50,854 nucleotides of DNA. Origin: Chloroflexota bacterium (lineage in GTDB: Bacteria > Chloroflexota > Limnocylindria > P2-11E). Each line of letters begins with the position of its first letter. Positions within the stretch are counted from its first letter, which is position 1. The notes under the pieces were generated by a model, which saw only the letters and a program-made list of their open reading frames with translations, had not been told where the DNA came from and did not search any database. The stretch spans positions 1 through 50,854 of the forward strand of contig VBDQ01000023.1 in assembly GCA_005889075.1 (NCBI GenBank). The letters are read 5' to 3'. Shown piece by piece: positions 7,676 through 46,029 of the stretch. Both the position numbers and the translations under genes were made by a program.

Positions 7676-8338
7676 TCACCCCGTGTCGGCGATGAGCCGC
7701 GCGACCACGCGGAGATCCGCGATGAAGGCGCGCATCTCCTCTTCCCGGGCGGCCTCGTCGTAGGCCCTGAGGATCGAGGAAGGGTGCACCGTGGCAACCA
7801 CGTGAGGAGCGAGCGGGGAAGCGATCAGCTTGCCCCGTTCTTTGGTCACCCTGAACGCTGGCGAGATGAGCGCCTGCGCCGCGGTCGCACCGAGACAGAC
7901 CACGACGCGCGGCTTCAGGATCGCGAGCTCCGCATCGAGCCAGAGGCGGCAGGCCTGGATCTCGCTCCGTCCGGGCTTCTCGTGCAGGCGCCGCTTGCCG
8001 GCCTTGCGCCACTTGAAGTGCTTCACCGCGTTGGTCACGTACACCGTGCTCCGGTCGATGCCCGCGGCCTCGAGCGCCTCGTCGAGCACTCGACCCGCGG
8101 GACCGACGAAGGGCCGACCCGCGATGTCCTCTTTGTCTCCCGGCTGCTCGCCCACGAACACGACTTTGGACGTGCGCTTTCCCTCGCCGAAGACGGTCTG
8201 CGTCGCGTTCTTCCACAGGTCGCAGGCGCGGCAATGCGCCGCCGATTCGCGGTATCCGGGAAGGCTCGTGCGCTCTGGGAGCTCGGGGTACTCGTGTCCC
8301 GGCTCGGGCTTGGGCGGCGGCAGCGAGCCGTCCTTCAT
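7676..8338 (-). CDS. udgX: UdgX-type uracil-DNA glycosylase
   Basis: A 220-residue uracil-DNA glycosylase of the iron-sulfur group (families 4/5 and UdgX). C36, C39, C130 and C148 fit the 4Fe-4S ligands; motif A is GEQPGDKED (63-71) and the DNA-binding motif is HPSSILR (185-191). The insertion KRRLHEKP (116-121 region) matches the UdgX loop, in which a histidine (here H119) bonds covalently to the uracil site and leaves enzyme stuck to DNA. I start at ATG 8338; the frame opens 21 codons further upstream but that would overlap the divergent gene. No repair genes adjoin it, apart from possibly sharing transcription with nothing downstream on this strand within 100 bases. Confidence 0.85.
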   Translation of the reverse strand: MKDGSLPPPKPEPGHEYPELPERTSLPGYRESAAHCRACDLWKNATQTVFGEGKRTSKVVFVGEQPGDKEDIAGRPFVGPAGRVLDEALEAAGIDRSTVYVTNAVKHFKWRKAGKRRLHEKPGRSEIQACRLWLDAELAILKPRVVVCLGATAAQALISPAFRVTKERGKLIASPLAPHVVATVHPSSILRAYDEAAREEEMRAFIADLRVVARLIADTG

Positions 8339-8379: not shown

Positions 8380-8847
8380 GTGAAGATCGCCGCGCCGGCA
8401 CTTGCTGTCATCGCCCTTGTGGCGATCGGCACGGCGGAGGCGCTCGAGAGTGCGCGCGAGCTCGCGGAGCTACCGGGGCGCGGGCGGCCGACGCTCGGCG
8501 GTGGCGGCGCGTCGCTGACGCTGGCCGGTCTGGTCCTCTCTATCGGCGTCTATGCGGTGCTCGGCTGGTCGGTCTCGTCGTGGACCGCCCGAGAGAGCGT
8601 CGCCCTACGGATCGGTGCCGGGGTCGGTCTCGCCGCTGGACTCATCGGGGGGACGATCCGCGCGGTCGCGGTGCGCGATTACGTGGATTCGATAGTGAGC
8701 GGCTTCGGTCTCCCGCTCGAGCTCGCGACATTCGCGCTGGCGGTCTTCGTCGTACTTGCGGTCGTCGCGAGCGCCTTGGGAGGCGCCGGGATCACTTGGC
8801 TGAGCTTCCGTTCTGCTCGGAAGAGGTCGCAGCGACCTCTTGCCTGA
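8380..8847 (+). CDS. Small integral membrane protein of unknown function
   Basis: Starting at GTG 8380 this is 155 residues with about four hydrophobic segments: APALAVIALVAIGTAEAL, LTLAGLVLSIGVYAVLGW, LRIGAGVGLAAGLIGGTI and LATFALAVFVVLAVVASALG. An alternative GTG at 8344 adds 12 residues but would leave only five bases to the divergent UdgX gene. I recognise no family. It ends 56 bases inside the 3' end of the convergent HD-GYP gene, so the two messages would be antisense to each other there. Confidence 0.55.
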   Translation: MKIAAPALAVIALVAIGTAEALESARELAELPGRGRPTLGGGGASLTLAGLVLSIGVYAVLGWSVSSWTARESVALRIGAGVGLAAGLIGGTIRAVAVRDYVDSIVSGFGLPLELATFALAVFVVLAVVASALGGAGITWLSFRSARKRSQRPLA

Positions 8848-9778
8848 TGCGGTCGACGGCCCCCTCGCGAGAGAGACCGACAAACGCGCTCACGACTTCG
8901 GGGTCGAATCGCTCGCCGGCACCCTTCTCGATCGCCTCGAGCCCGGCCTCGGCGGACCACGCGTCCTTGTACGGGCGCTTCGAGGTCAGCGCATCGAATA
9001 CGTCGGCGACCGACACGATGCGCGCCGCGAGCGAGATCTCGTCGCCCTTCTTGCCGTCGGGGTAGCCCTTCCCGTCCCAACGCTCGTGGTGCTCGCGCGC
9101 GATCCCGCGGGCGATCTCGAAGAAGCGCGCGTCTCCGAGCATCTTCTCCCCGTCGGTGCAGTGCTTCTTGATCACGTCGAACTCGTCGTCCGACAAGTGA
9201 TGCTCGCTCTGCAAGATGTGATCGGGTGTGTGGATCTTTCCGACATCGTGCATGACGCTCGAGTAGCCGAACTCCTCGACGAGATCCGCCGGCAGGCCGA
9301 GCCGCTCGGCGATCGCCTCGACGTAGCGGCGCACGCGAAGGAGGTGGTCTCCGGTCGTGCGGTCCTTGATCGTGGCGGCGAGCAGCAGGTGGCTGATGCC
9401 CTGGAGACCGGTGCGGCGAAGCTCTTCGTTCGCGATGCGCTCCTGCTCGAGAGCGCGCTCGAGCTCGTGGCGCCGCTCGCGCTCGGTGCGCAGCATCTGC
9501 GCGAGGTCCTCGGCATAGCGCGTCGCCTGCTTCTCCATGAGCGCCATCTGCCGGAGCTGTAACTCGAATTCCTTGCGGACGCCTTGCTCGCGCTCGTACA
9601 CCTTCGCGAAGTCCATCGCCATACGCATGGCCTGCGCGTTGGAGAGGTCGGCGACGCGTACCGCTTGGTGAAGGAGCTGCCTGAAGACGTCGGGGCTCGC
9701 GGCGCCGCTCGGCGCTTCGGGCATGGCCGGCGAGACATCGACCGTCTCGACCATCTTCTTCGTGTCGTCGGGGTTCAT
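8792..9778 (-). CDS. HD-GYP domain protein, probable cyclic-di-GMP phosphodiesterase
   Basis: A 328-residue cytoplasmic protein. Residues 1-60 are unassigned, 60-125 are a charged coiled coil (EREQGVRKEFELQLRQ, RTERERRHELERALEQERI), and 125-320 an HD-GYP domain with an intact H177-D178 pair (MHDVGKIHTPD), HHE at 230-232 and GYP at 238-240. Intact members hydrolyse cyclic di-GMP to GMP or pGpG. It follows the CheY-like gene by five bases, so that regulator may control it in trans in place of a fused receiver. It is the last gene of the long minus-strand signalling cluster and contrasts with the degenerate HD-GYP protein upstream. Confidence 0.88.
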   Translation of the reverse strand: MNPDDTKKMVETVDVSPAMPEAPSGAASPDVFRQLLHQAVRVADLSNAQAMRMAMDFAKVYEREQGVRKEFELQLRQMALMEKQATRYAEDLAQMLRTERERRHELERALEQERIANEELRRTGLQGISHLLLAATIKDRTTGDHLLRVRRYVEAIAERLGLPADLVEEFGYSSVMHDVGKIHTPDHILQSEHHLSDDEFDVIKKHCTDGEKMLGDARFFEIARGIAREHHERWDGKGYPDGKKGDEISLAARIVSVADVFDALTSKRPYKDAWSAEAGLEAIEKGAGERFDPEVVSAFVGLSREGAVDRIRQEVAATSSEQNGSSAK

Positions 9779-9783
9779 GGGCT

Positions 9784-10155
9784 CTAGCTGTGGGCCAGGA
9801 TCCCGCGGATCGTGTCGATGAGCTCGAGCGGCCCGAAGGGCTTGGTCAGGTATTGCGTCGCGCCGGCGGCGAAGCCGATCGCGCGGTCGCTGTCGCTCTC
9901 GTGAGCGGTGAGCATCACGACGGGGATGTCCTTCGTCGCCTGATCGGCCTTGATCTGGCGGCAGACGTCGAAGCCATTCGGACCGGGACCCATGTCCACG
10001 TCCAACAGCACCAGGTCGGGCTTCTCGGAGCGGACCAGGTCGAGCGCCTCGTTTCCGTTCTTGGCCTCGACGATCGTCCAACCCTGCGTGGACAGGGTGA
10101 TACGGACCATCTGCCTGATGGGCACCAGATCGTCGGCGACGAGCAGCTTGGCCAT
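9784..10155 (-). CDS. Single-domain CheY-like response regulator
   Basis: A stand-alone receiver domain of 123 residues with acidic pocket D8-D9, phospho-acceptor D52 (LVLLDVDMGPGPNG), the conserved Thr in VVMLTAHES and the Lys in YLTKPF. No output domain is attached. It is five bases upstream of the intact HD-GYP gene, suggesting that it docks on that protein's coiled coil, or passes phosphoryl groups among the nearby kinases. A hairpin at 10200-10230 separates it from the preceding gene, so it may be expressed at a different level from the upstream cluster. Confidence 0.92.
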   Translation of the reverse strand: MAKLLVADDLVPIRQMVRITLSTQGWTIVEAKNGNEALDLVRSEKPDLVLLDVDMGPGPNGFDVCRQIKADQATKDIPVVMLTAHESDSDRAIGFAAGATQYLTKPFGPLELIDTIRGILAHS

Positions 10156-10199: not shown

Positions 10200-10230
10200 C
10201 CCGAACGAATGGTCTCTATGACCGTTCGGG
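10200..10230 (-). terminator. Hairpin between NarL-type and CheY-like genes
   Basis: CCCGAACG (10200-10207) and CGTTCGGG (10223-10230) are perfect inverted arms; a second small stem GGTC/GACC lies inside the loop. It covers the stop codon of the NarL-type gene (10216-10218). With no T-run it may be a partial terminator or a processing site. Confidence 0.4.
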
Positions 10231-10929
10231 TGTCGGACCGTTTCCCCCGCGCGGGGGAGCCGGGCGCTCGCGAGTCCAGGATTCGAGCGTGACGAGCCCG
10301 AGGCGAGCCGCTTCCGCGACTGCTTCGAGACGGGAGTGCGCGCCGAGCTTGCGGAGGACCGCCTGAACGTGGGCACGCAGCGTCGCAGTGGAGATCCCGA
10401 GCGAGTCCGCAGCGGCGGAGGTGCTGGTCCCGCTCGCGAGGAGGCGCAGGACCTCGAGCTCGCGGCTCGTCAGCGGCTCGATCACCTTCTTGTTCGCGCC
10501 GCTCTCGAGGAGCAGCCGCTGAAGCTCGCTTGGCGCGAAGAGGATCTCTCCCGATGCCGCTGCGCGAACGCTCTCGACGACCTCCGCGAATCCCCGCTCC
10601 TTGGTGAGGTGTCCCACCGCGCCGGATCGCGCGACGTCGTTGAGCGTCGCGGCCGATGGGTCGGCGGTCAGGACGAGCACCGCGGTGTCCGGGAGGGTGT
10701 TGCGCACGGCCCGGGCAAGGTCGGCTCCGGTCCCGTCAGGGAGGTGATAGTCGGCCAGGACGACATCGGGCTTGTGCTCGTTCAGCGCGGCGATGGCCGT
10801 CTTGACGTTGTGCACGACAGCCTCGACGTTGATCCCGTCGGCCCCGCGCAGCGCGACGCGCATCAGCTCCGCGAAGAGCCGCTCGTCGTCGACGATGACC
10901 ACCCGGATCGGACTACTCGTTTCATTCAC
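10216..10929 (-). CDS. NarL/FixJ-family response regulator
   Basis: A 237-residue two-domain regulator: receiver (about 7-125, D60 in VVLADYHLPDGTG) and a LuxR-type helix-turn-helix (about 160-220, PLTSRELEVLRLLASG and SLGISTATLRAHVQAVLRKLGAHSR). The K of the receiver is present in GHLTKERG. It starts at GTG 10929, which overlaps the TGA of the degenerate HD-GYP gene in a GTGA four-base overlap, so it is translationally coupled. It is the only DNA-binding protein of the minus-strand signalling cluster and thus its likely transcriptional output. Confidence 0.92.
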   Translation of the reverse strand: MNETSSPIRVVIVDDERLFAELMRVALRGADGINVEAVVHNVKTAIAALNEHKPDVVLADYHLPDGTGADLARAVRNTLPDTAVLVLTADPSAATLNDVARSGAVGHLTKERGFAEVVESVRAAASGEILFAPSELQRLLLESGANKKVIEPLTSRELEVLRLLASGTSTSAAADSLGISTATLRAHVQAVLRKLGAHSRLEAVAEAARLGLVTLESWTRERPAPPRGGNGPTPERS

Positions 10930-12242
10930 GGCTGCTGCCCTCCGTTCGACCGGATCTGCGTCGCGAGCGCCGCGACGACCGCGGCATCGAGCTCGCCTCG
11001 CGCGACGGCGCCTTGCAGGATGCGCACGGCCTCTGCCTCGGAGACTCCAGGCCGGTCGGGACGATCGGTGAGGAGCGCTTCGAACCGGTCGGCGACGGTC
11101 ACGATACGGACCTCGAGCGGAATGAGCTCGGCGCGCAACCCATCGGGATAGCCCGTGCCGTCGAGCCGCTCGTGATGGTGCCGGACTATCGGCAGCAGGC
11201 CCGAGAGCCGGTTGAATCCGCCGAGCAGCTCCTCGCCCAGGATCGGATGGCGCTCGAGCATGGCGCGCTCGTCGGGCGTGAGCTCGCCCTGCTTGGCGAG
11301 GAGCGCCGCGGGAAGGCGCGCGTTGCCGACGTCCTTGAGCAGGGCTCCGAGCCGGATCGTCATGCGCGTGGACTCATCGAGCCCGAGCGCACGCCCGATC
11401 TGCACTGCACGCGCCGCGACGCGCTCGCTGTGCCCTTGGCTTGGGCGATCGTGCGATGCGACTGCCGCGGCGAGGACGATGAGCGCCTCGGCGGCCGCGC
11501 TCAGATCCTGATCGAGCCGCTCTTCGCGGACCACGAGATCGACGATGCGCGGCAGCTGCGCGTCCACGGGCACGATCTCGGGACGATCATCTGACGCGCG
11601 CCCGCCGGTGACGCGAATGACCGAAGCGTCCTCAGGCGCATCGGCGGGGACCGGCGCGTTCCCCTCCACGATGAGGACGTCTGGTGCCTCCGACCCATCC
11701 GCGATGTCGAAGCGGGACCCGAGCAGCCGCTCGACGTGTCCCGCGAGGGCGGAGTCCCCGATCGCGACGCGAGCCCGAAGACGCGCTCCCCCGGAGCGGT
11801 CGACGGTGCGGACAAGACGCGGCACGCGCGGGTTGCGCGCCTGGCCGAGCACCGCATCGATGCGCGCGAGCAGCTCGGCGGCCTGGAACGGCTTGGTGAT
11901 GTAGTCCGCGGCGCCGCACGACAGGCCGCGGACCTTGTCCACGACCTCGCCGCGTGCCGAGAGGAAGATCACGGGGATCGGCGCGGTCGAGCTGTTGCTC
12001 TTGATCCGCAGGCAAACGTCGTAGCCGTCGGTGTCGGGAAGCATGACGTCGAGGAGCACGAGGTCTGGGAGGAGCTCCTCGACCAGGGCGATGCCTCTCT
12101 GGCCGTCATGCGCCACCGAGACGACCATCCCGTTGGCCTGAAGTCGCCGCTGCAGCACGTCGGCGGACGCTTGATCGTCCTCGACGACGACCACGCGCGT
12201 CGGCGGGGCATCGGAGCGAATGGCCTCTTCCACGGCCTTCAT
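10926..12242 (-). CDS. Receiver plus degenerate HD-GYP domain protein
   Basis: A 438-residue protein: receiver (about 15-135, phospho-acceptor D65, K118 in ITKPF), a 100-residue linker that may hold a second, degenerate receiver-like fold (155-235), and an HD-GYP domain (about 250-430). The HD pair is broken: the expected HDIGK reads KDVGN at 303-307, so the first metal-binding His is Lys303, while HHE (356-358) and DGTGYP (361-366) are kept. I expect reduced or no hydrolysis and a role as a cyclic-di-GMP receptor or scaffold. It overlaps the VTC gene by ATGA and the NarL-type gene by GTGA. Confidence 0.85.
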   Translation of the reverse strand: MKAVEEAIRSDAPPTRVVVVEDDQASADVLQRRLQANGMVVSVAHDGQRGIALVEELLPDLVLLDVMLPDTDGYDVCLRIKSNSSTAPIPVIFLSARGEVVDKVRGLSCGAADYITKPFQAAELLARIDAVLGQARNPRVPRLVRTVDRSGGARLRARVAIGDSALAGHVERLLGSRFDIADGSEAPDVLIVEGNAPVPADAPEDASVIRVTGGRASDDRPEIVPVDAQLPRIVDLVVREERLDQDLSAAAEALIVLAAAVASHDRPSQGHSERVAARAVQIGRALGLDESTRMTIRLGALLKDVGNARLPAALLAKQGELTPDERAMLERHPILGEELLGGFNRLSGLLPIVRHHHERLDGTGYPDGLRAELIPLEVRIVTVADRFEALLTDRPDRPGVSEAEAVRILQGAVARGELDAAVVAALATQIRSNGGQQP

Positions 12243-13018
12243 TTCCTTGCCGCGCCGTTCTCGCCGAGGAGATGGCGCATGGCGACGATGAACTTGGAGG
12301 GACGTTCCTCCTTGGTGTTCTCCTTGAGGTACTGGTGAAGGTCGACCGCCCAGTGCGGAAGGTCGGAGTACCACTTCATCTCCACGATCACATCCGGCTC
12401 CATCGCGAGGAGCGAGCCGAGCGGCGAAGGGTCATCCTCGTCGGTCGTCTCCCACGGCAGCGCGAAGTACATGAGGTTGTGATCGGCTGTGATTCGGACC
12501 GACGAATCCAAGGAGCTGTACGCGAGGCGGTTGTACTGCGTCACGCACACCGGTCTCGCGCCGTCCTTAAGGAGACGGCCCGCCCGCTCCGCGAGACCGT
12601 GGTTCAGGTCGGAGATCGCGGGCTCGCTGCGGAGGAAGGACCGTGCGCTCTCCATCGGCACGCCGTATCGCTCTTTGAGCGACGTGTCCTCCTCGTCGTC
12701 CTTGAACTCGATCCAGGCCGTGCCGGGGCCGAGGACCTGGCGCGGTCGGGTGCGATGGTATTCGCGGATCCGCAGCTGCATCGCGGAGCCGCGCTGCGCC
12801 GAACGGTAGATGGACCAGGCGACGGTGTCGCAGTACGTCGTCGTCGACCATTGATAGGGTCGGTCGTCGCGGGAGAGCGGAAGATTATTCGCGGTCGTGC
12901 GCATGACCAGCCGAGCGACGCTCTCGCTCACCTGGAAGCGATGCTCGTGTCGCCGCTCGGCGTCCGCCTCGTGAGCGGCGACGACTTTGGTGGTCACCCT
13001 TCGATTCCGGGCGTTCAC
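12239..13018 (-). CDS. VTC-domain polyphosphate polymerase
   Basis: A 259-residue protein that matches the catalytic tunnel domain of yeast Vtc4, an ATP-dependent polyphosphate polymerase. The basic and acidic tunnel residues lie on successive strands: EHRF (25-28), LRIREY (82-87), WIEFKDD (102-108), QYNRLAY (161-167), RITADHN (175-181), VIVEMKW (210-216) and SKF (241-243). No SPX domain or membrane segment is attached, as is usual for bacterial forms. The start is GTG 13018. It lies 12 bases after a nucleotide-carrier-like transporter and overlaps the receiver/HD-GYP gene by four bases, placing polyphosphate synthesis inside a signalling operon. Confidence 0.85.
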   Translation of the reverse strand: MNARNRRVTTKVVAAHEADAERRHEHRFQVSESVARLVMRTTANNLPLSRDDRPYQWSTTTYCDTVAWSIYRSAQRGSAMQLRIREYHRTRPRQVLGPGTAWIEFKDDEEDTSLKERYGVPMESARSFLRSEPAISDLNHGLAERAGRLLKDGARPVCVTQYNRLAYSSLDSSVRITADHNLMYFALPWETTDEDDPSPLGSLLAMEPDVIVEMKWYSDLPHWAVDLHQYLKENTKEERPSKFIVAMRHLLGENGAARK

Positions 13019-13030
13019 GTTAACGCTTCC

Positions 13031-14524
13031 TCACTCGGTCACGTCCGCGGCCACGGCGAGCACGCCCCTTCGGGTCAGGGCGACCCGAACGCCGTGCTCG
13101 ACGTCCGCTGGGATGGCGCCGTTAAGCGAGCGGAGCAGCTCGTCCGGCACCGCGGCGTGCTCGGTCGCGAGGATCTCGGCGGCGCTCCGCCGAACATCCG
13201 GCTCGATCGAGGTGATGTTCTCGGCGATGCGGCGCCCGAACACCGCGCGGGTGTGGAACGTGTTGTAGAGGTACACCACCGACAGTCCGGTGCCCACCGC
13301 CAGGAGGGTCTGCACATCGGACGCGGCGAGACCCACGATGAGCCCCACGGCGGCGACCATGTTGCCGAACGCGTTCACTCCGCCCGAGAGGAATGCCCGG
13401 GCGCGCGGGCGGATGTCGGCGGAGACCTGGCTGTAGACGAGCTCCGCAGCCGGCCGGTGGATCGCCGGGATGACGATGCGCTCCCCGAGCTGCAAGGCGA
13501 CGCCGGCAATGAAGCCGATGGTCAGAGCGTCCGGGGCACTGATTGCCGCGCCGGCGTACGTGGCGAGGTACCAGAGCGGCAGCACGAAGAGGACGCGCGC
13601 GATGCCGAGCCTCCGGAGCGCGGCGCTGGTGATGACGCTCTGGATGAATAGCGCGACGATCGACGAGCTCGTGTAGACGGACGCGTAGAGCTGGCTGAAG
13701 AAGTCCTCGCTCGCGACGCCGTTGCCCGCGGCGGCCTGATTCAGACCGAGCAGGTACAGGAAGTTCGCGAACTGCATGAGGAAGTACCAAAAGAAAACGC
13801 CGACCGCGAAGGTCTGAAGTAGCCGATCCCTTGCCACGGTGCGGTAGCCGTCGACCGAGTCGCGGATGCTCCCGCGAAGCCCGTGAGGACGTTCATCCGA
13901 GTCGATCTTGCTGCCGTGCCCCTCCGGCAGGCCGCGGTAGATGACGAGGGCGACGAAGCAAATGAAGAATCCGACCGCTTGCGCGCCGATGAAGTTCTCG
14001 GCGTGGATGATCGGCGCGATCGCGGCGCCCAGGAAGCCGCCCGCGATCTTTCCGACCAGGACCGATCCCGCGAAGAACGGGAAGAGACGCTTCGACTGCT
14101 CGGCGTCATAGAGGTTCCCGGCGTATACCCAGAAGAGGATGTAGATCGTCTCCTTGACGCCGTGCGCGAAGACGTACGAGATCGGCTGCACGATGTTGCC
14201 CGCGACCGGGAACGTGATGCCAAGCTGGATCGCGACCGAGAGCAACGTGACGCCGGCGACGTACCAGAGCAGCAAGGTGCGGCGTCGGACCCGATCGACG
14301 AAGAAGAAGATCAGCGCCGAAACCGCGAGCATCGCGAGCGGCGTGATGATGTACATCCACGGCACGTACTGGACGCCGTACCGCTTGACGAAGAGCGCGT
14401 CCGCGCCGAGCTTGCCGATCCAGTCGGCGCCGACCATGAGCGTCAACAGGCCGTAAAGGAAGAGGCCGAGGCCCCATTCGCCTCGGCGCAGCGGGAATGC
14501 GTCGACCAGGACGCGACGGACCAT
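13031..14524 (-). CDS. Membrane transporter resembling ATP/ADP (NTT) carriers within the MFS fold
   Basis: A 497-residue protein with about twelve membrane helices and a soluble C-terminal tail of about 90 residues. The spacing and segments such as LFVKRYGVQYVPWMYIITP, QPISYVFAHGVKETIYILFWVYAGNLYD and LFPFFAGSVLVGKIAGGFLGA resemble the TLC/NTT nucleotide carriers seen in intracellular bacteria and also, without known function, in free-living ones. The ATG at 14524 is chosen; it follows the REC-REC-kinase by five bases. Its tail (SIEPDVRRSAAEILATEHAAVPDELL) looks like helical HEAT-type repeats. Substrate unproven; nucleotide or phosphate compounds are guesses from the neighbours. Confidence 0.65.
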   Translation of the reverse strand: MVRRVLVDAFPLRRGEWGLGLFLYGLLTLMVGADWIGKLGADALFVKRYGVQYVPWMYIITPLAMLAVSALIFFFVDRVRRRTLLLWYVAGVTLLSVAIQLGITFPVAGNIVQPISYVFAHGVKETIYILFWVYAGNLYDAEQSKRLFPFFAGSVLVGKIAGGFLGAAIAPIIHAENFIGAQAVGFFICFVALVIYRGLPEGHGSKIDSDERPHGLRGSIRDSVDGYRTVARDRLLQTFAVGVFFWYFLMQFANFLYLLGLNQAAAGNGVASEDFFSQLYASVYTSSSIVALFIQSVITSAALRRLGIARVLFVLPLWYLATYAGAAISAPDALTIGFIAGVALQLGERIVIPAIHRPAAELVYSQVSADIRPRARAFLSGGVNAFGNMVAAVGLIVGLAASDVQTLLAVGTGLSVVYLYNTFHTRAVFGRRIAENITSIEPDVRRSAAEILATEHAAVPDELLRSLNGAIPADVEHGVRVALTRRGVLAVAADVTE

Positions 14525-14529
14525 GGGCG

Positions 14530-16077
14530 CTAGGCCTTCGCCGGCGTCCGTTGCGCCGCGGGGAGCGTGAACTGCACGACCGCGCCGGGCTTTCCGGGGT
14601 TGGCGACGCTGATCGTGCCGCCGTGCAGCTCGACCGCGAGCTTGCAAAACGCGAGACCGAGGCCCGTGCCGCCGCGGCTCCGGCCCGCACCTTGATAGAA
14701 ACGGTCGAAGATGTGCGGAGCGTCGTTCTCGGATATGCCGGGGCCGGTGTCGACGACCCGGACGACCACCGAGCGCTCGAGCGACTCATCCGGAGCGCTT
14801 TCGATGCGGACCTTACCGCCACTCGGCGTGTGCTTGACCGCATTCGCGAGCAGATTGGTGAGCACGCGAACGATGAGCGCATCGTCGACGAAGACCGAGG
14901 CATCCGCGGGGAGCGTGGTGTCGAGCTCGATCCCCTTGGCGAGCGCCTCGGGGGCCACCTGCGCCAGGCTGCGCTCGGCCAGAGCCGCGAGCCCGATGAC
15001 CTGGGGCATCGCCTCGAGCTTGCCCTCCTCCATCTTGTAGACGTCGAGAAGGGCGTTGACCATCCGCAGCAGCTCGCTGATGTTCGATTCCGAGAGTCGC
15101 AGGAGCTCGTCGAACTCATGCCGCCCCGGCTCGAGCTGACCCATCCGCACGAGCTGCATGAACGCGACGACGCTGTTCGCGAGGTTGCGGATGTCGTGGC
15201 CGAGCATGCCGATGAGCTCTTTGCGCGACTGCTCGAGACGATGCAGGTCGACATTCGTCCGCCGCAGCTCATCTTGCAGGCGCTTCGTGAAGATGGCGCT
15301 GCGCACGCGCGCCGCGAGCTCCATCGGCTCGATCGGTTTGGTGATGTAGTCGATGCCACCGACCTCGAATCCCTTGCTCACGTCCTCGGACCGGTCGCGC
15401 GCGGTCACGAAGATCACCGGGATCTCGGCGGTCTCGGGCTGGGACTTGAGACGCCGGCAGGTCTGCCAGCCATCGATGCCCGGCATCATCACGTCGAGCA
15501 AGATCAGGTCGGGCTGTTCCGTTCGGGCGAGTGCGATCGCGCGCTCTCCTGAGCTCGCCACCTGCGTCTGGCAGCCGATGGCCTCGAGGCGGCGAGCGAG
15601 GAGCTCGACGTTCGCGACCTCGTCGTCGACGATCAGTACCCGGCCGAGGGGAGTCGGCTGCTGGCCGCGTGCGGGCGCGGCGCCATCGCGCGCGGGCGTA
15701 TGCGCCGCGGGGCCCCCGGGAAAGTACCTGGTGAGGATCGCGCGCAGCTCCGCCGGCGCGAAGGGCTTCGACACGAAGTCGTCGCACCCGGCCTCGATCG
15801 CGCGTGCCCGATCGGACGGCAGCGCCAGCGCGGAGACCGCGATGATCGGGATCGCCGACGCCCAGCCCTCGCTCCGAAGCGACCGCGTCAAGCTCCATCC
15901 ATCCATGCGCGGCAGCAGCAGATCGACGAGGATCGCGTCCGGCCGCTCGACGCGCGCGAGCTCGAGACCTGCGACGCCATCCGAGGCGACCAGGGCTTCG
16001 TGGCCCGACGCGCGGATGATCCGCGAGGCGACGTCGAGGTTGTTGGCGTCATCCTCGACGACGAGCACTCGCGCCAT
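14530..16077 (-). CDS. Hybrid REC-REC-histidine kinase
   Basis: A 515-residue soluble protein. Two receivers come first (about 1-120 with D52, K104; about 145-262 with D195, K247), then a short coiled coil (RLQDELRRTNVDLHRLEQSR), a HisKA domain with H294 (MLGHDIRNLANS) and an HATPase domain with N box NLLANAVKHTP, DTGPGIS and GGTGLGL. The order, receivers before the kinase, suggests that phosphorylation by the upstream membrane kinase governs this second kinase. The start ATG shares a base with the TGA of that kinase (TGATG). No membrane segment is present. Confidence 0.9.
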   Translation of the reverse strand: MARVLVVEDDANNLDVASRIIRASGHEALVASDGVAGLELARVERPDAILVDLLLPRMDGWSLTRSLRSEGWASAIPIIAVSALALPSDRARAIEAGCDDFVSKPFAPAELRAILTRYFPGGPAAHTPARDGAAPARGQQPTPLGRVLIVDDEVANVELLARRLEAIGCQTQVASSGERAIALARTEQPDLILLDVMMPGIDGWQTCRRLKSQPETAEIPVIFVTARDRSEDVSKGFEVGGIDYITKPIEPMELAARVRSAIFTKRLQDELRRTNVDLHRLEQSRKELIGMLGHDIRNLANSVVAFMQLVRMGQLEPGRHEFDELLRLSESNISELLRMVNALLDVYKMEEGKLEAMPQVIGLAALAERSLAQVAPEALAKGIELDTTLPADASVFVDDALIVRVLTNLLANAVKHTPSGGKVRIESAPDESLERSVVVRVVDTGPGISENDAPHIFDRFYQGAGRSRGGTGLGLAFCKLAVELHGGTISVANPGKPGAVVQFTLPAAQRTPAKA

Positions 16078-18371
16078 CAGCGGCCCGCGGCGGCGCGCGT
16101 GAGGAGCACGCTCTCGCTGCCGGCACGCACCCGGATCGGCAGGGTGAAGTGGAACGTGCTCCCCTTGCCGGTCTCGCTGTCCACCCAGATGCGGCCGCCG
16201 TGCAGCGTCACGAGCCGCTTCGAGATCGCGAGCCCGAGCCCGGTGCCGCCGTAGCGGCGTGTCGTCGAGCTGTCGGCCTGGCGGAATTCGTCGAACACGT
16301 AGGCCTGCGCTTCGGGACTGATCCCGACACCGGTGTCCGCCACCGACATCGTCACCCAGCCCTCGGCCGCGCTCGCCGAGACCGTCACAGAGCCGCGCTC
16401 CGTGAACTTCACCGCGTTCGCGAGCATGTTCGCGAGGATCTGGCGCACCCGCGCGCGGTCTGCCCACACGTTCGGAAGGCCCGCCGGAAGCAAGGTCCGT
16501 ACGGCGAGGCCCTTCTCGTCGGCGTGCGGCCGCACGAGCTCGAGCGCCTCGTCGGTGACGTCGACCATGTTCACCTCTTCGACGTTGAGCTCCATCTTTC
16601 CGGCCTCGATCTTCGCCAGATCGAGGAGGCCATTGATGAGACCGAGGAGGTTGTCCGCGGCCTGAGCCACACGGAAGAGATCGGTCTGCTGCTGCGGCGT
16701 CATCTCGCCGTCGAGGCCGTCCAGCATGAGCTTCGTGTAGCCGATGATCGCGTTCATCGGTGTCCGGAGCTCGTGGCTGACCGACGCGAGGAACTCGCTC
16801 TTTAGCCGGTTGGCGCGCTCGAGCTGCAGGTTGTTGACCCGGAGCTCGGAGACGAGGTCCGCGTTCTCGTTCGCGACGGAGACCAGACGCGCGATCGTTC
16901 GCAGCGCGCGCGCCTGCGTGTCAGTGACTTCGCGCTGCTGCCGAAAGTAGGCCGAGAGGAGGCCGATGGTGCGTCCCCGCGCGGAGAGCGGAACGTGCGC
17001 GACGAACTTCAGGTCGCCGGCCTGCACGCTCGAGAGCCGGATGCGATCGGCGTCGGCCTCCGAGCGGACGAGGACGCGCATCGCGAGCGTGACCGCGGTC
17101 TCGGCGTCGAGCCCCACGGTCGCGGGTGCAGAGAGACGCCCACCTGATCCTGGAGGCGCGCCGGGCGGGTCCTCCCGGATGACGATCGCGCCACCCTCGG
17201 CGCCGAGAAGCGAGACCATGCGGTCCAGCGATCGAGCGAAGATGCGCTCCGCATCGGTCACGCCGACGACCGCGTCCGCGACCTCGTTCACCGCGCGGAC
17301 CTCGTCGAGGTACTCGCGCTGGGCTCGTTCGCGTTCGTAGAGCGACTGGGCCATCGTGTCGAAGGCTCGCTCGAGCGTGCCGATCTCGTGCGGGGACGCT
17401 TGCGGTACGCGCGCCGCGAGGTCGCCCGCTTCGATGCGCTGCGCGGCGGAGGCCAGGCTCGCGAGCGGCTCGGTGATGCTTCGTGCCGTGCGGTAGGCGA
17501 GGAGGGTGACCACCGCGACGAGGCCAAGCCCGAGCACGATGAGGATCCCGACGAGGGTGCGCTGCGCCTGCTCGACACCGGCGGTCGGCACGAGAACGGC
17601 GAGCAGGCCCGGGTTCTGGCGCTGCGAGCGAATAACCCGGAAGATGCCGTAGTAGTTGGTGTTGTGGGCGCTGACGTTCTCGATGAGGACGTCGCCGGGC
17701 TGCGCGTCGACCTCGGTGACGCTCGGGAACATCGTGTTGCTGCCGAAGTCGACGGTCGACGCGCGGACCTGTCCGTTCCAGATGAGCGCAAGGTCGGCGT
17801 TCGATCGGGTCTTGATGTCGGTGAGGAACTTCGACCCGAGGATCGCGCCGGCTTCCATCATTCCGATTGGCTCTTGCTCCGCGTCGCGGATCACGTAGAT
17901 CGCGCGGACGAACAAGCCCTGCGGCTCGTCGAAGAGGACCCAGGATTGCTGCACCTGCGCTTGGGCCAAGGTCACGAGCTCGGGCTGGAACGTGTCGCTC
18001 GTCTTCTCCTGTGCAGTCGCGATGATGCGTCCGTCGTTATCAGCAACGCTCATGTCGTCGACGCCGATCTCGGACTTGAGCGGCAAGAGGAAGTTCGTGA
18101 GGGCGTCGGCGTCGCGCGCCGCGGTGAGCTGTCGGGTCGTGGGAAGGCTGGCGACGGTCTGGGCGGCCCGGCCCGCCAGGTCCGACTGGTCGTTGATCTC
18201 GTTCAGCGCGACGTCGGCAAGGATCGCGGACTCATCGGCGAACTGGCCAAGGATGAGCTGGTTCGATTCGTAGATCGCGACGGCGACCACGACGACGAGG
18301 GCAAGCACGCTCACCAGCACGTTCCGGCTGACGAGCGCGCGGAGCAGGCTAGGCGCCAGCAGCGTCTGCAT
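16077..18371 (-). CDS. Membrane sensor histidine kinase (Cache-HAMP-GAF-HisKA-HATPase)
   Basis: A 764-residue sensor kinase. Helix 1 is at 17-34, a long extracytoplasmic region of dCache type spans about 40-268, helix 2 is at 272-293, followed by HAMP (294-347), a GAF-like domain (about 365-505), HisKA with H533 (SVSHELRTPMN) and an HATPase domain (N box NMLANAVKFTE, DTGVGIS, GGTGLGLAISK). It sits between the PstS-like lipoprotein (54 bases upstream) and the REC-REC-kinase (one-base overlap). The lipoprotein is well placed to present a ligand to its external domain, by analogy with binding-protein-assisted sensors. Confidence 0.92.
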   Translation of the reverse strand: MQTLLAPSLLRALVSRNVLVSVLALVVVVAVAIYESNQLILGQFADESAILADVALNEINDQSDLAGRAAQTVASLPTTRQLTAARDADALTNFLLPLKSEIGVDDMSVADNDGRIIATAQEKTSDTFQPELVTLAQAQVQQSWVLFDEPQGLFVRAIYVIRDAEQEPIGMMEAGAILGSKFLTDIKTRSNADLALIWNGQVRASTVDFGSNTMFPSVTEVDAQPGDVLIENVSAHNTNYYGIFRVIRSQRQNPGLLAVLVPTAGVEQAQRTLVGILIVLGLGLVAVVTLLAYRTARSITEPLASLASAAQRIEAGDLAARVPQASPHEIGTLERAFDTMAQSLYERERAQREYLDEVRAVNEVADAVVGVTDAERIFARSLDRMVSLLGAEGGAIVIREDPPGAPPGSGGRLSAPATVGLDAETAVTLAMRVLVRSEADADRIRLSSVQAGDLKFVAHVPLSARGRTIGLLSAYFRQQREVTDTQARALRTIARLVSVANENADLVSELRVNNLQLERANRLKSEFLASVSHELRTPMNAIIGYTKLMLDGLDGEMTPQQQTDLFRVAQAADNLLGLINGLLDLAKIEAGKMELNVEEVNMVDVTDEALELVRPHADEKGLAVRTLLPAGLPNVWADRARVRQILANMLANAVKFTERGSVTVSASAAEGWVTMSVADTGVGISPEAQAYVFDEFRQADSSTTRRYGGTGLGLAISKRLVTLHGGRIWVDSETGKGSTFHFTLPIRVRAGSESVLLTRAAAGR

Positions 18372-18425: not shown

Positions 18426-19256
18426 CTAGAGACCCGCCAGGATCTTCTGCCCGTCCGGTCCCTTCACGAAACTGATGAAGGCTTGGATGGTCGGCTTCAC
18501 TTTCGCCGGATCCGTGGTGTAGACGAGGTATAGCGGACGGCGGACCTGGTACTTGCCGGAGTTGAGGTTGTCGCGGGTCGCAGAAACGCCATCGATCGTC
18601 GCGAAGGCGATCGTCGGATCGGCGAACGTGACCGCGCTCATCGTGACCATCCCGATCGACTCTTTGAACGAGTTGATCGCCTTTACCGTCTGGTCGATGT
18701 TCGTGACCTCGACCGCGTTCGGCGCGTAGGTCGGCTTCTTGCCGTCGAAGAAGTACGACTCGAACGCGCTGCGCGTCGATGCGCCCGCCTCACGGATGAG
18801 GATGCGGATCTTGCCGGGCGTCCCTCCGACATCCTTCCAGTCGGTGATCGCGCCCGTGAAGATCTTCGCGACTTGATCCTTGGTCAGCGCCTTGACCGGA
18901 TTCGACGCAGCCACGGCGACCGCCGTGCCGCTCGCGCCGATCGAGAGCGCCTCGACCTTGCCTTTCTCTGGGTCCTTGAGCTCGCGGCTGATGTAGCCAA
19001 GATCGGTCTCGCCCGAGACCACCAGATTCACGCCGGCATCGGAGCCGATGTCGGCGAGGCCCTGCCAGGTGATGTTCGGATGAAGCTTGCCGAATGCGTC
19101 GGTGAGCGCCTTGACGTTTTCGAGCGCGCCGCCGCCTCCGTTCACGATGTACTGCCCGGCCAGCGCGTCAGGTGTGGACTGCGCGGGGATCGCGCCTCCG
19201 CAGGCAGCCAGCGACGCCGCCAAGATACCGAGCAACGTTGTCCGCAAAGAACGCAC
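18426..19256 (-). CDS. PstS-like phosphate-type substrate-binding lipoprotein
   Basis: A short family member (about 276 residues) of the PstS/PBP-like superfamily. The lipobox LAAC gives a lipid-anchored mature protein. Family features are GGGGALENVKALTDAF at the start of the mature part, IGASGTAVAVAASNPVKALTKDQVAKIFTGAITDWKDVGG, and REAGASTRSAFESYF, which fits the phosphate-binding S-G-T/R-x-x-F pattern. I prefer the GTG at 19256 because CCTCCT on the plus strand at 19263-19268 gives an AGGAGG six bases before it; an ATG at 19271 is the alternative. No PstC, PstA or PstB gene is near; it heads the signalling cluster instead, implying a sensing role. Confidence 0.85.
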   Translation of the reverse strand: MRSLRTTLLGILAASLAACGGAIPAQSTPDALAGQYIVNGGGGALENVKALTDAFGKLHPNITWQGLADIGSDAGVNLVVSGETDLGYISRELKDPEKGKVEALSIGASGTAVAVAASNPVKALTKDQVAKIFTGAITDWKDVGGTPGKIRILIREAGASTRSAFESYFFDGKKPTYAPNAVEVTNIDQTVKAINSFKESIGMVTMSAVTFADPTIAFATIDGVSATRDNLNSGKYQVRRPLYLVYTTDPAKVKPTIQAFISFVKGPDGQKILAGL

Positions 19257-19313
19257 CCCGGCCCTCCTCATGGGTCGAATCGCGACATTAGTCTCTGACC
19301 TCTGTATAGGAAG

Positions 19314-19358
19314 GTCTATCCCTCTGGAGGCGGATTCCCGTTACACCTTGGGATAGAC
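19314..19358. promoter_or_regulatory. 9-bp inverted repeat in divergent promoter region
   Basis: GTCTATCCC (19314-19322) and GGGATAGAC (19350-19358) are perfect inverted arms, 36 bases centre to centre, inside the 160-base gap between the PstS-like gene (minus) and a histidine kinase gene (plus). The size fits two half-sites or a looped operator for a dimeric regulator controlling both sides. Which protein binds is unknown; the NarL-type regulator at 10216-10929 is a candidate. Confidence 0.45.
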
Positions 19359-19433
19359 GAGTCCTAATCCAAATTCGGTAGCCGAGACCAAAAGTGGACC
19401 AAAAGCGTCCGGGTTGGAGCGATACTGCGCCGG

Positions 19434-31214: not shown

Positions 31215-33368
31215 CTACCGGCTCGGGATCACCCAGTCCTTCGGGAGGATGTGGATCCAGGTCTGTCCCGGCTCGAGCCGCACGAGCTCGCCGGCCGCGT
31301 TGCGGAGCTGGAACTGGTCGAAGAGGTCCGGGCGCGACCACGTGACGTCCTCGCGCCGGCCGTCGCGGAACACCACGCCAGTGCCGGTGCCCGTGGGGTC
31401 GGTGAAGAGCTTCGGGTTGCCCGCCGGGTCGAAGCCGTACGCGTCGGTGAAGTGGACCTCGGTGTCGATCACGATGATGTTCCGCGCGGCGATCGCCTGG
31501 CCGTTCGCGCCGTCCACCTCGCGGGCGCCGTCGTCGAACCGGGCGTAGGTCCGCGACCCGGCGTCGTACTGGTAGCGCACCGCGAACCCTCCGCGGTAGG
31601 GGATGTCGATCGTCGTCGCGGGCACGCTTGTGCCGAATCCGCCGGCCATGTCATCGGTGTTGGAGGGCGGCACGAAGTCCCACGCGGCGACGTCGACGGG
31701 ATCGTTCCCGCCCGGCGCGGATGCGAGCGCGGCCTTCAGCGCCGCGTAGCTGGTGAAGTAGTTGTACGGCGCCTCGCGGAACCCGACACGGTAGCCCCAG
31801 CCGTAGCTCGGCGAGAGGTCCACGTAGCGGTGCGCGACGGCGTCGTCGTAATGCAACCGCATGAGCTCCTCGGGGCCGCCGCCCGAATAGACGAATGCCG
31901 CGCCGAGGCTTGGCACGATCGGCGTGTCGGTGATGCGCGCGCTCCGCACCGAGCCGATCACATCGGGCTTTTGCGATTGAAACACCGCGGCCAGCCGTGT
32001 CGTGAGGCCTTCGACGAGCCACTCGTAGACCTCATCGGCCTTGCTGATCCCGTAGTGCGGCCGCGCGTGCGGGTTGTTGTCGATCTTCACGTAGAGCGGA
32101 CGCTCGTTCGCGGACCCGCCCGCGAGCGGCAGGCCGGTCAATGGCCAACGGGCGCAGACCGTTTGCTCGCCCGTTGAGATGACCTGGAACGCGCTCCCCG
32201 AGTTGTGGAGGACGCTCATGCGCACCTGCGTCATGTCGCCCGGCGCGACCGCGTCAGCGTCAGGCTTCTTGTCGCCGTCCCAGTCGCCGACCAATAGCGC
32301 CGACCCGCCCGCGCAGACGGAGGACGCCGGCAGCGCCGCCCAACCGGCCCAGCCGTTCGCGGGCTTGAAGCCGTTTGCCCCCTCAAAGACCTGGACTCTT
32401 GCGCTCCCATCCCCGTCGCCATAGAGCGCCACGAGATCGTCGCGACCATCCCCGGTGACGTCGGCGGCGGAGACCGAAGCGCGGCTTAGGTCGTACTCGC
32501 CTTCATTTGTCTCGTAGATGTTGCTTTGGAGGACGAGGCCGGACGGCAGCGGATCGAACACGCCGATCCGGACCTTCGCGTTCGGGTACTGATAAAGGAC
32601 GGCAATCTGCTGCGGCCCACTCGTTCGCGTGAACCGGCCGACGGCGAAGCGCGCTCGTGGGGCGTCGAACTGTCCAACACCCGAGTCGTAGACGCCCTGG
32701 CTACCGCCGTAGGCGAATGCCGACCCCGCCGAGTCGAACGAGTGCAGCTTCAGCTCGCCGTTGTCGTACTGATACGCGAGGAGGAGCTGGTCGCGATCGG
32801 TCGAGCCGAAAGCGCCGGCGAGCACCGCATGCACGCGGTCCCATGCGTACGCGTCGCTCTGCCACCACGCCTCGGGAGGTGTGAAAGCCGAGCCGGTCGA
32901 GCGGAACACCAGCAGCCGCGAGGCCGTCGCACCGTCCTTGTAGAGAGCGACGAGGTCATCTTTGCCGTCGCCGTTCGCGTCGGCCACCGCGAACTTCGCG
33001 CGGCTTATGGCGAAGAAGGCGGGCGACGACGCGAACCAGGTGGACTCGGCGAACGTCTCCCCGTCCGCGTTCGCATCGCGGACATTGATCCGGAGCGTCA
33101 AATCCTTGTTCGGGTCCTGGAGAAGCGCGATCTGCGACTTGCCATTGCCGCGGAAATCTCCGCTCGCCGCGACTGTCGCGCCGCCCACCGCGCTCACCGA
33201 GCGCAGCGGCGATGGCTTGACCGCCGCAAGAGGACTTGCGCTCGACGGAGCCGTTTCCGATGGGGACCCGATCGCACCACCACCGTTCGGTCCCGGCATG
33301 CCCCGGCACCCGGCAATCACGGTGGAAAGCACGAGAAGACCAGCGAGGACCGGCCGACGACGGTTCAC
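31215..33368 (-). CDS. Lipoprotein with VCBS-type repeats fused to a DUF3048 domain
   Basis: About 717 residues. The lipobox VIAGC is 17-21 residues from the GTG at 33368 (a GGAG lies just before it; a TTG at 33383 is the alternative). Residues to about 400 hold repeated FG-GAP/VCBS-like units such as GDFRGNGKSQIALLQD, DANGDGKDDLVALY, DVTGDGRDDLVALYGDG and DWDGDKKPDADAV, which bind calcium in propellers. The second part (from about KIDNNPHARPHYGISKADEVYEWLVEG) is DUF3048, a family represented by YerB lipoproteins and of uncertain function. The fusion is unusual. It converges with the GNAT gene, with seven bases between stops. Confidence 0.8.
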   Translation of the reverse strand: MNRRRPVLAGLLVLSTVIAGCRGMPGPNGGGAIGSPSETAPSSASPLAAVKPSPLRSVSAVGGATVAASGDFRGNGKSQIALLQDPNKDLTLRINVRDANADGETFAESTWFASSPAFFAISRAKFAVADANGDGKDDLVALYKDGATASRLLVFRSTGSAFTPPEAWWQSDAYAWDRVHAVLAGAFGSTDRDQLLLAYQYDNGELKLHSFDSAGSAFAYGGSQGVYDSGVGQFDAPRARFAVGRFTRTSGPQQIAVLYQYPNAKVRIGVFDPLPSGLVLQSNIYETNEGEYDLSRASVSAADVTGDGRDDLVALYGDGDGSARVQVFEGANGFKPANGWAGWAALPASSVCAGGSALLVGDWDGDKKPDADAVAPGDMTQVRMSVLHNSGSAFQVISTGEQTVCARWPLTGLPLAGGSANERPLYVKIDNNPHARPHYGISKADEVYEWLVEGLTTRLAAVFQSQKPDVIGSVRSARITDTPIVPSLGAAFVYSGGGPEELMRLHYDDAVAHRYVDLSPSYGWGYRVGFREAPYNYFTSYAALKAALASAPGGNDPVDVAAWDFVPPSNTDDMAGGFGTSVPATTIDIPYRGGFAVRYQYDAGSRTYARFDDGAREVDGANGQAIAARNIIVIDTEVHFTDAYGFDPAGNPKLFTDPTGTGTGVVFRDGRREDVTWSRPDLFDQFQLRNAAGELVRLEPGQTWIHILPKDWVIPSR

Positions 33369-33475
33369 TTGCTCCGACAACAATCGGGCATGAGGCAGGG
33401 TCCGTGCCAGCGGTGGAGCGGGTGGTCGCCAAGGTCGCCGACGTCCGAGAGCCCATGCGCTCGGTCGGAAGAGCG

Positions 33476-45520: not shown

Positions 45521-46027
45521 GTGTCGGCGGTATCCATGAAATCACGGGCACCCCAGGAAAATGCGGGGTCTCCGTGTGGCAGTCCTTCTGCATCACGGCG
45601 GGCCGTGCATCTCTCACCGCGCGAGAGGGAGATCCTTCGCTACGTCGCGGCAGGACACACCACGAAAGAGCTGGCCGCCGCGCTGAATATCGCCGAGAGC
45701 ACCGCCGAGTGGCACGTCTCGAACATCCTTGTGAAGCTCGGAGCGTCCAGCCGGGCTGAAGCGGTCGCAGTCGGATTACGTGAGGGCCTTCTCGAGCCGG
45801 AGGAGCAACCTCTCACGGGAAGATCGGCGCCCGATTTGGCGACCAGGCCTGAGCGTCGCGCTCACGGCTGGCGGGACGAACGGGTCATCCATTTCGATCT
45901 GCTCGGAGTGCATCTCGGGAAGATCAGGATCGGGCGCGGCCGCCAAGATCTTGCGCAGACGGAAACAAAGCCCGTGCGTGCCGAGTCCGGCGGGCCTGAA
46001 GACCGCAGCGGTGCAAAGAAGGGATAG
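45521..46027 (+). CDS. LuxR-type helix-turn-helix regulator without receiver
   Basis: A 168-residue protein from GTG 45521 (ATG 45536 is an alternative). Residues 30-95 are a LuxR/GerE DNA-binding domain: LSPREREILRYVAAGHTTKELAAALNIAESTAEWHVSNILVKLGASSRAEAV is matched at every usual position. The flanking 30 N-terminal and 70 C-terminal residues are low-complexity and may not be ordered. No sensory domain is present. Its stop shares a base with the frame of the Lon-related gene, so they may be coupled and the regulator may control the protease. Confidence 0.8.
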   Translation: MSAVSMKSRAPQENAGSPCGSPSASRRAVHLSPREREILRYVAAGHTTKELAAALNIAESTAEWHVSNILVKLGASSRAEAVAVGLREGLLEPEEQPLTGRSAPDLATRPERRAHGWRDERVIHFDLLGVHLGKIRIGRGRQDLAQTETKPVRAESGGPEDRSGAKKG

Positions 46028-46029
46028 TG

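Follow-up and report, generated by a model that had tools for sequence, protein, structure and literature searches.

A predicted VTC-type polyphosphate polymerase gene paired with a pseudo-HD-GYP response regulator gene in a two-component cluster of Chloroflexota

Introduction

In yeast, VTC is controlled through SPX domains and inositol pyrophosphates, and the tunnel domains of Vtc2/3 are non-catalytic and bind polyphosphate (polyP). Bacterial VTC domains are already a known kind, as are degenerate forms of the HD-GYP domain, which in active proteins carries the motif HDxGK. In reviews, VTC enzymes are placed in eukaryotes and bacterial polyP synthesis is ascribed to PPK (PMC12526157, PMC10657179), and polyP synthesis in prokaryotes is described as being under pho regulatory control (PMC7332688). 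Yeast Vtc4 is inactivated by mutating R264, R266, and E426 (PMC9911596), Glu-171 of AtTTM3 is part of an acidic patch (PMC4641920), and replacement of H221 or K225 of the HD-GYP protein PmGH by alanine abolishes its phosphodiesterase activity (PMC4159591).

Here we analyse a 50,854-nucleotide stretch (the window; GCA_005889075.1, contig VBDQ01000023.1) from a bacterium of the Chloroflexota (Limnocylindria; P2-11E), in which a predicted VTC-type polyP polymerase is encoded within a cluster of two-component genes.

Results and Discussion

Organization of the gene cluster

The cluster comprises nine genes on the minus strand, running from 19271 to 8792 and joined mostly by overlaps or short gaps:

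18426..19271 (-), PstS-like phosphate-binding lipoprotein (PF12849, 95.5 bits, over the cut-off)
16077..18371 (-), membrane sensor histidine kinase, dCache-HAMP-GAF-HisKA-HATPase, with two hydrophobic segments
14530..16077 (-), hybrid histidine kinase/response regulator, REC-REC-HisKA-HATPase (Pfam domains)
13031..14524 (-), polytopic membrane protein of no recognised family, with at least eight hydrophobic segments
12239..13018 (-), VTC-domain (TTM-fold) predicted polyphosphate polymerase (PF09359, AlphaFold2 model, PDB fold matches)
10926..12242 (-), response regulator of 438 amino acids with an intact REC domain, a middle region, and a pseudo-HD-GYP domain (PF00072, HD_5)
10216..10929 (-), LuxR/NarL-type DNA-binding response regulator (REC and GerE), conserved in gene order
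9784..10155 (-), single-domain response regulator (PF00072, 91.7 bits)
8792..9778 (-), intact HD-GYP protein, predicted c-di-GMP phosphodiesterase (HD_5, 126.7 bits)

The PstS-like gene is the first of the operon. Its product scored 140.5 bits against TIGR02136, below the cut-off of 206.6, and phosphate-binding proteins were among its best PDB matches (top E 1.6e-28); the gene calls of the window that were scanned included no pstCAB genes. Between this gene and a divergent histidine kinase gene lies an intergenic stretch (19272-19433) that is well conserved in nine relatives and is a likely promoter region. No RNA families were found in the window, and the repeats in the cluster were set aside, being either similarity between REC/HK coding sequences or chance matches in GC-rich sequence. 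The start of the hybrid kinase at 16077 was set from a TGATG junction; the stretch scanned for domains began at 16038.

The membrane gene at 13031-14524 adjoins the VTC gene in the genus and in g8 and is missing from that place in g2. Because it is not always present and has no Pfam or PDB relative, we kept it out of the core of the system; its product is a candidate transporter partner of VTC. Downstream of it, as the sequence-only reading had noted, the VTC gene overlaps the receiver/HD-GYP gene, the stop of one and the start of the other sharing 4 bp (ATGA). An alternative start for the second gene at an upstream in-frame GTG (12374) was rejected in favor of 12242. Its own junction with the LuxR-type gene is a GTGA overlap. 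The single-domain REC protein is 69-99% identical across the order. The intact HD-GYP gene, three genes downstream of the REC-pseudo-HD-GYP gene, encodes HDVGK and HHERWDGKGYP, with HDVGK kept in 13 of 13 orthologues.

Elsewhere in the window are a LonB/LonC-like AAA protease (46027-48192, plus strand; AAA_32, LonB LID, LonC helical, and Lon_C) and a DUF3048 protein with FG-GAP-like repeats ahead of its DUF3048 part (31215-33383, minus strand).

A probably soluble VTC protein with the Vtc4 tunnel residues

The VTC open reading frame at 12239-13018 starts with GTG and encodes 259 amino acids that match the PF09359 VTC profile nearly end to end (positions 2-234 of 235; 73.8 bits, cut-off 23); there was no NCBIfam match, and a genome search found no second VTC gene in the source genome. 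An AlphaFold2 model built from 15 orthologues (mean pLDDT 85.7) had the yeast Vtc4 crystal structures 3g3r/3g3q as its top PDB matches (E ~6e-13, TM ~0.64), ahead of every CYTH-type triphosphatase. In sequence searches of the PDB the single protein gave weak matches only (E 0.12), and the orthologue profile reached Vtc4 at 5e-7. The VTC identity proposed by the sequence-only reading was thus borne out by both the profile and the fold.

So too were the tunnel residues that it had named. Aligned through the orthologue profile to the full-length chain 8i6v_E, on which Vtc4 residues were counted, R164, R175, E213, K215, and K242 correspond to Vtc4 R361, R373, E426, K428, and K458. R83, R85, K106, and K115 correspond to R264, R266, K281, and K294, the first two placed by the LRIREY/LRWYG pattern and the multiple alignment, as HMMER shifted the short stretch there. 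These nine residues are invariant across the 15 orthologues and nearly invariant among 24 other VTC proteins of the phylum. Identity with Vtc4 thus extends to nine of ten catalytic or polyP-guiding positions. The tenth, which we take to be Vtc4 K200, is Arg 27 here; in the alignment against Vtc4 and bacterial VTC proteins that had been proposed as a check, it was the one tunnel position among those inspected at which the Vtc4 residue was missing. Arginine stands there in every VTC of this order and lysine in 23 of 23 alignable VTCs from outside it, a conservative change specific to the order.

A Pfam scan found VTC as the sole domain, with no SPX, and a hydrophobicity scan found no hydrophobic or transmembrane segment, so that the marks of the eukaryotic VTC complex (SPX and a C-terminal transmembrane domain) are absent from the protein. 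The absence of SPX had been noted earlier as a feature of this gene; the observation holds, but none of the orthologues examined has an SPX domain either, so it is no peculiarity of this gene. The protein is most likely a cytoplasmic, TTM-fold enzyme converting ATP to polyP, and, judged by its residues and fold, polymerase activity is probable.

The partner is a response regulator with a degenerate HD-GYP domain

The gene that overlaps VTC encodes a REC domain (PF00072, 96.7 bits) and an HD-GYP-type domain (HD_5, 125 bits), separated by a middle region with no family match. Its AlphaFold2 model (pLDDT 59.7) was too poor for a fold search. The receiver identified by the sequence-only reading is intact, with the phospho-acceptor D65 and the lysine K117 invariant in orthologues; the degeneration of the HD-GYP catalytic motif had been overlooked. 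Alignment to the active HD-GYP structures 5z7c and 4mcw places K303-D304-V-G-N307 where active proteins have HDxGK, and every orthologue has (K/R)DxG(N/H/Y) there. The positions equivalent to PmGH H221 and K225 are thereby replaced throughout the orthologues, and the other histidines, the GYP motif, the VAD aspartate, and most metal ligands are retained. We therefore predict a conserved pseudo-phosphodiesterase that would be unable to hydrolyse c-di-GMP, making control through hydrolysis by this protein unlikely, and the retained residues leave nucleotide binding possible. That the receiver is intact while the motif is lost in all orthologues indicates that the output domain of this protein, which is translationally coupled to VTC, was converted from an enzyme to another role and then conserved.

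In two loci (L015, ~1330-1471; L028, ~7780-7901) the start of this gene lies in a different frame from the remainder, through either a frameshift or an assembly error; both loci may be one species.

Conservation of the pairing within the order

Among 29 genomes of the order, 16 encode VTC, 17 encode the REC-pseudo-HD-GYP family, and 12 encode neither. In all 16 VTC-bearing genomes the two genes are adjacent; in the seventeenth (G134) the contig ends inside the REC-pseudo-HD-GYP gene, where VTC would be expected. The co-occurrence gives a Fisher p of 3e-8, uncorrected for shared descent. Apart from that contig-edge case, a search of 177 genomes of the class detected the REC-pseudo-HD-GYP family, at the threshold used, only alongside VTC. 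PF09359 missed the VTC of two genomes (G131 and G133), both of which were found with the order's own alignment. Additional loci (L021-L034) came from Chloroflexi MAGs, mostly with depth labels suggesting soil cores; their species probably overlap largely with those of the G-numbered genomes, and the counts are not to be summed.

Protein identity is ~80% through most of the genus, and the gene order is kept down to ~48-50% VTC identity (f2, L010/L034), the membrane gene alone coming and going. The best single piece of evidence for the pairing comes from G141, a 97% complete genome of the same genus as G138-G142, in which the VTC, REC-pseudo-HD-GYP, and PstS-like genes are all missing. The sensor kinase, hybrid kinase, LuxR, REC, and HD-GYP genes remain in order, and the genes that would flank the VTC/pseudo-HD-GYP pair meet at a GTGA overlap; this is one event, representing either a loss or an older state. 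The earlier claim of a VTC gene embedded in a response-regulator operon can thus be extended, as the linkage to a two-component cluster is conserved across the order with this one joint absence. Conservation of the pairing is within one order. Taken together, these patterns show that the linkage is no coincidence and make it probable that the two genes form a functional pair.

Polyphosphate metabolism and c-di-GMP in the order

Profile searches of the 29 genomes, which are incomplete MAGs, found PPK1 in one genome and in none of those bearing VTC, PPK2 over the cut-off in two (one of them with VTC), and neither Ppx/GppA over the cut-off nor DUF4956 (PF16316) in any. Positive controls were detected in each of these searches; since a profile missed VTC twice, these negatives carry a risk of being false. 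With no PPK1 detected in the VTC-bearing genomes, the principal polyP synthase that could be recognised there is VTC, and in nearly all of them, allowing for MAG incompleteness, it appears to be the only one. The whole order seems to be without the standard polyP enzymes, whether VTC is present or not. With no Ppx over the cut-off and almost no PPK2, the order yielded no known route of polyP use. The source genome encodes nine GGDEF domains over the cut-off, indicating that c-di-GMP is likely present.

A proposed model of phosphate-responsive polyP synthesis and its alternatives

The operon and its co-conservation suggest that phosphate signalling may switch polyP synthesis. In our model, a two-component cluster responding to phosphate would have VTC as its polyP-synthesising output and would act through the dedicated partner of this enzyme, the REC-pseudo-HD-GYP protein. 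External phosphate would be sensed by the PstS-like protein together with the dCache kinase, a role assigned from their families, and phosphoryl groups would pass to the REC-pseudo-HD-GYP protein. Through contact, and possibly with c-di-GMP as an additional input, that protein would change VTC activity or placement. It would then do the job performed in yeast by SPX domains and inositol pyrophosphates. With its intact phospho-acceptor and predicted inability to hydrolyse c-di-GMP, the partner is probably a phosphorylation-dependent, perhaps c-di-GMP-binding, regulator of VTC. We regard the model as a whole as evenly poised. Among its parts, we lean toward phosphate as the signal, and we consider direct contact between VTC and the REC-pseudo-HD-GYP protein slightly less likely than not. 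The most specific version, in which a phosphorylated receiver together with c-di-GMP, bound and left uncleaved by the pseudo-HD-GYP domain, directly switches the sole or principal polyP synthase in an order without PPK1, is rather unlikely. Counting against the whole model are the arginine at K200, the lack of a known route of polyP use, conservation within a single order, and reliance on a single joint absence.

Linkage in an operon could by itself reflect nothing beyond co-transcription, and the main rival to direct control is coupling through transcription. In that case a polyP-making VTC would share the expression of a phosphate/stress two-component operon, and the REC-pseudo-HD-GYP protein would never touch VTC, acting instead on the LuxR regulator, on the active HD-GYP protein, or on some other REC partner. 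In favor of such coupling are the run of nine genes joined mostly by overlaps and short gaps, the pho regulatory control of polyP synthesis stated for prokaryotes (PMC7332688), and the persistence of the cluster without VTC in G141. What that genome lacks, however, is exactly VTC and the pseudo-HD-GYP protein (with PstS), while the other regulators stay, and the pseudo-HD-GYP family was not seen apart from VTC across the class, the one contig-edge case aside. We consider this reading doubtful, if the most serious competitor. A still simpler account, that the neighbourhood is one inherited block that has had no reason to break, would explain why all cases share one order and why proteins within most of the genus are so similar, but it fits poorly with a gene order that persists to 48-50% identity, with the variable presence of the membrane gene beside a VTC/pseudo-HD-GYP pair that does not separate, and with the joint absence of that pair from G141; we judge it very improbable.

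A different objection concerns the VTC protein itself, which might be a TTM-fold triphosphatase or polyphosphatase, or a non-catalytic polyP sensor informing the two-component system of the phosphate or polyP level. TTM-fold proteins show more than one kind of activity, and a plant relative sharing the core is no polymerase (PMC4641920); the arginine at the K200 position is in keeping with such a role, and, no Ppx having been found, a polyP-degrading function would fill a gap. Against this, no orthologue departs at any other catalytic or metal residue, the E426 and K458 equivalents included, Vtc4 leads the fold matches ahead of all CYTH enzymes, and K215 (Vtc4 K428) lies two residues past the metal glutamate, where AtTTM3 has its acidic-patch Glu-171 (PMC4641920). 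We find a non-polymerase role improbable and retain polymerase activity, with control through the REC-pseudo-HD-GYP protein, as the preferred reading.

Significance

The pairing of VTC with a pseudo-HD-GYP protein in a lineage without detectable PPK1 was not found in the literature searched. That search, mostly without subscription journals and so weak evidence of absence, also turned up neither a study of a bacterial VTC enzyme nor one of VTC coupled to two-component systems, in agreement with the earlier remark that such coupling is not established. If the model is true, the VTC of this uncultivated soil lineage would add a second way of making polyP in bacteria, the conserved pseudo-HD-GYP domain would acquire a concrete role, and gating by a two-component system would parallel, in bacteria, the SPX control of yeast. 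The two proteins would offer a small, probably soluble system for studying the switching of the VTC tunnel without SPX.

Comparison with known systems

The VTC protein shares its fold and nine matched tunnel residues with the TTM domain of yeast Vtc4 (3G3Q/3G3R, 8I6V), at ~20% identity, but lacks the SPX domain, transmembrane part, and Vtc1-like channel and has arginine for K200; the neighbouring regulator gene encodes a REC protein rather than an inositol-pyrophosphate sensor. In other Chloroflexota, VTC often adjoins DUF4956, its usual partner in bacteria and the recurring neighbour outside the order. These proteins belong to the same Pfam family and have the same tunnel residues, but they pair with the membrane protein DUF4956 where the VTC described here pairs with REC-pseudo-HD-GYP. 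A few of them also adjoin two-component genes: an OmpR-type response regulator follows VTC-DUF4956 in L038 and L051, and a histidine kinase precedes it in L046, indicating that linkage of VTC to two-component systems probably arose more than once. The first two (L038, 1408-3519, with a 4-bp overlap with the regulator; L051, 1327-3541) are separate linkages of this type.

The partner protein resembles RpfG and TM0186 (and, for the catalytic domain, PmGH) in its REC-HD-GYP layout and in retaining the GYP motif and most of the metal ligands, but carries lysine or arginine in place of the HD histidine and asparagine, histidine, or tyrosine in place of the HDxGK lysine, and is predicted to be inactive. 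The closest regulatory parallel is the control of ppk by PhoR/PhoB-PstS, as in both cases a phosphate-binding protein and two-component genes are linked to a polyP synthase gene; here the predicted synthase is VTC, with PPK1 undetected, and the coupled regulator has no recognised DNA-binding domain.
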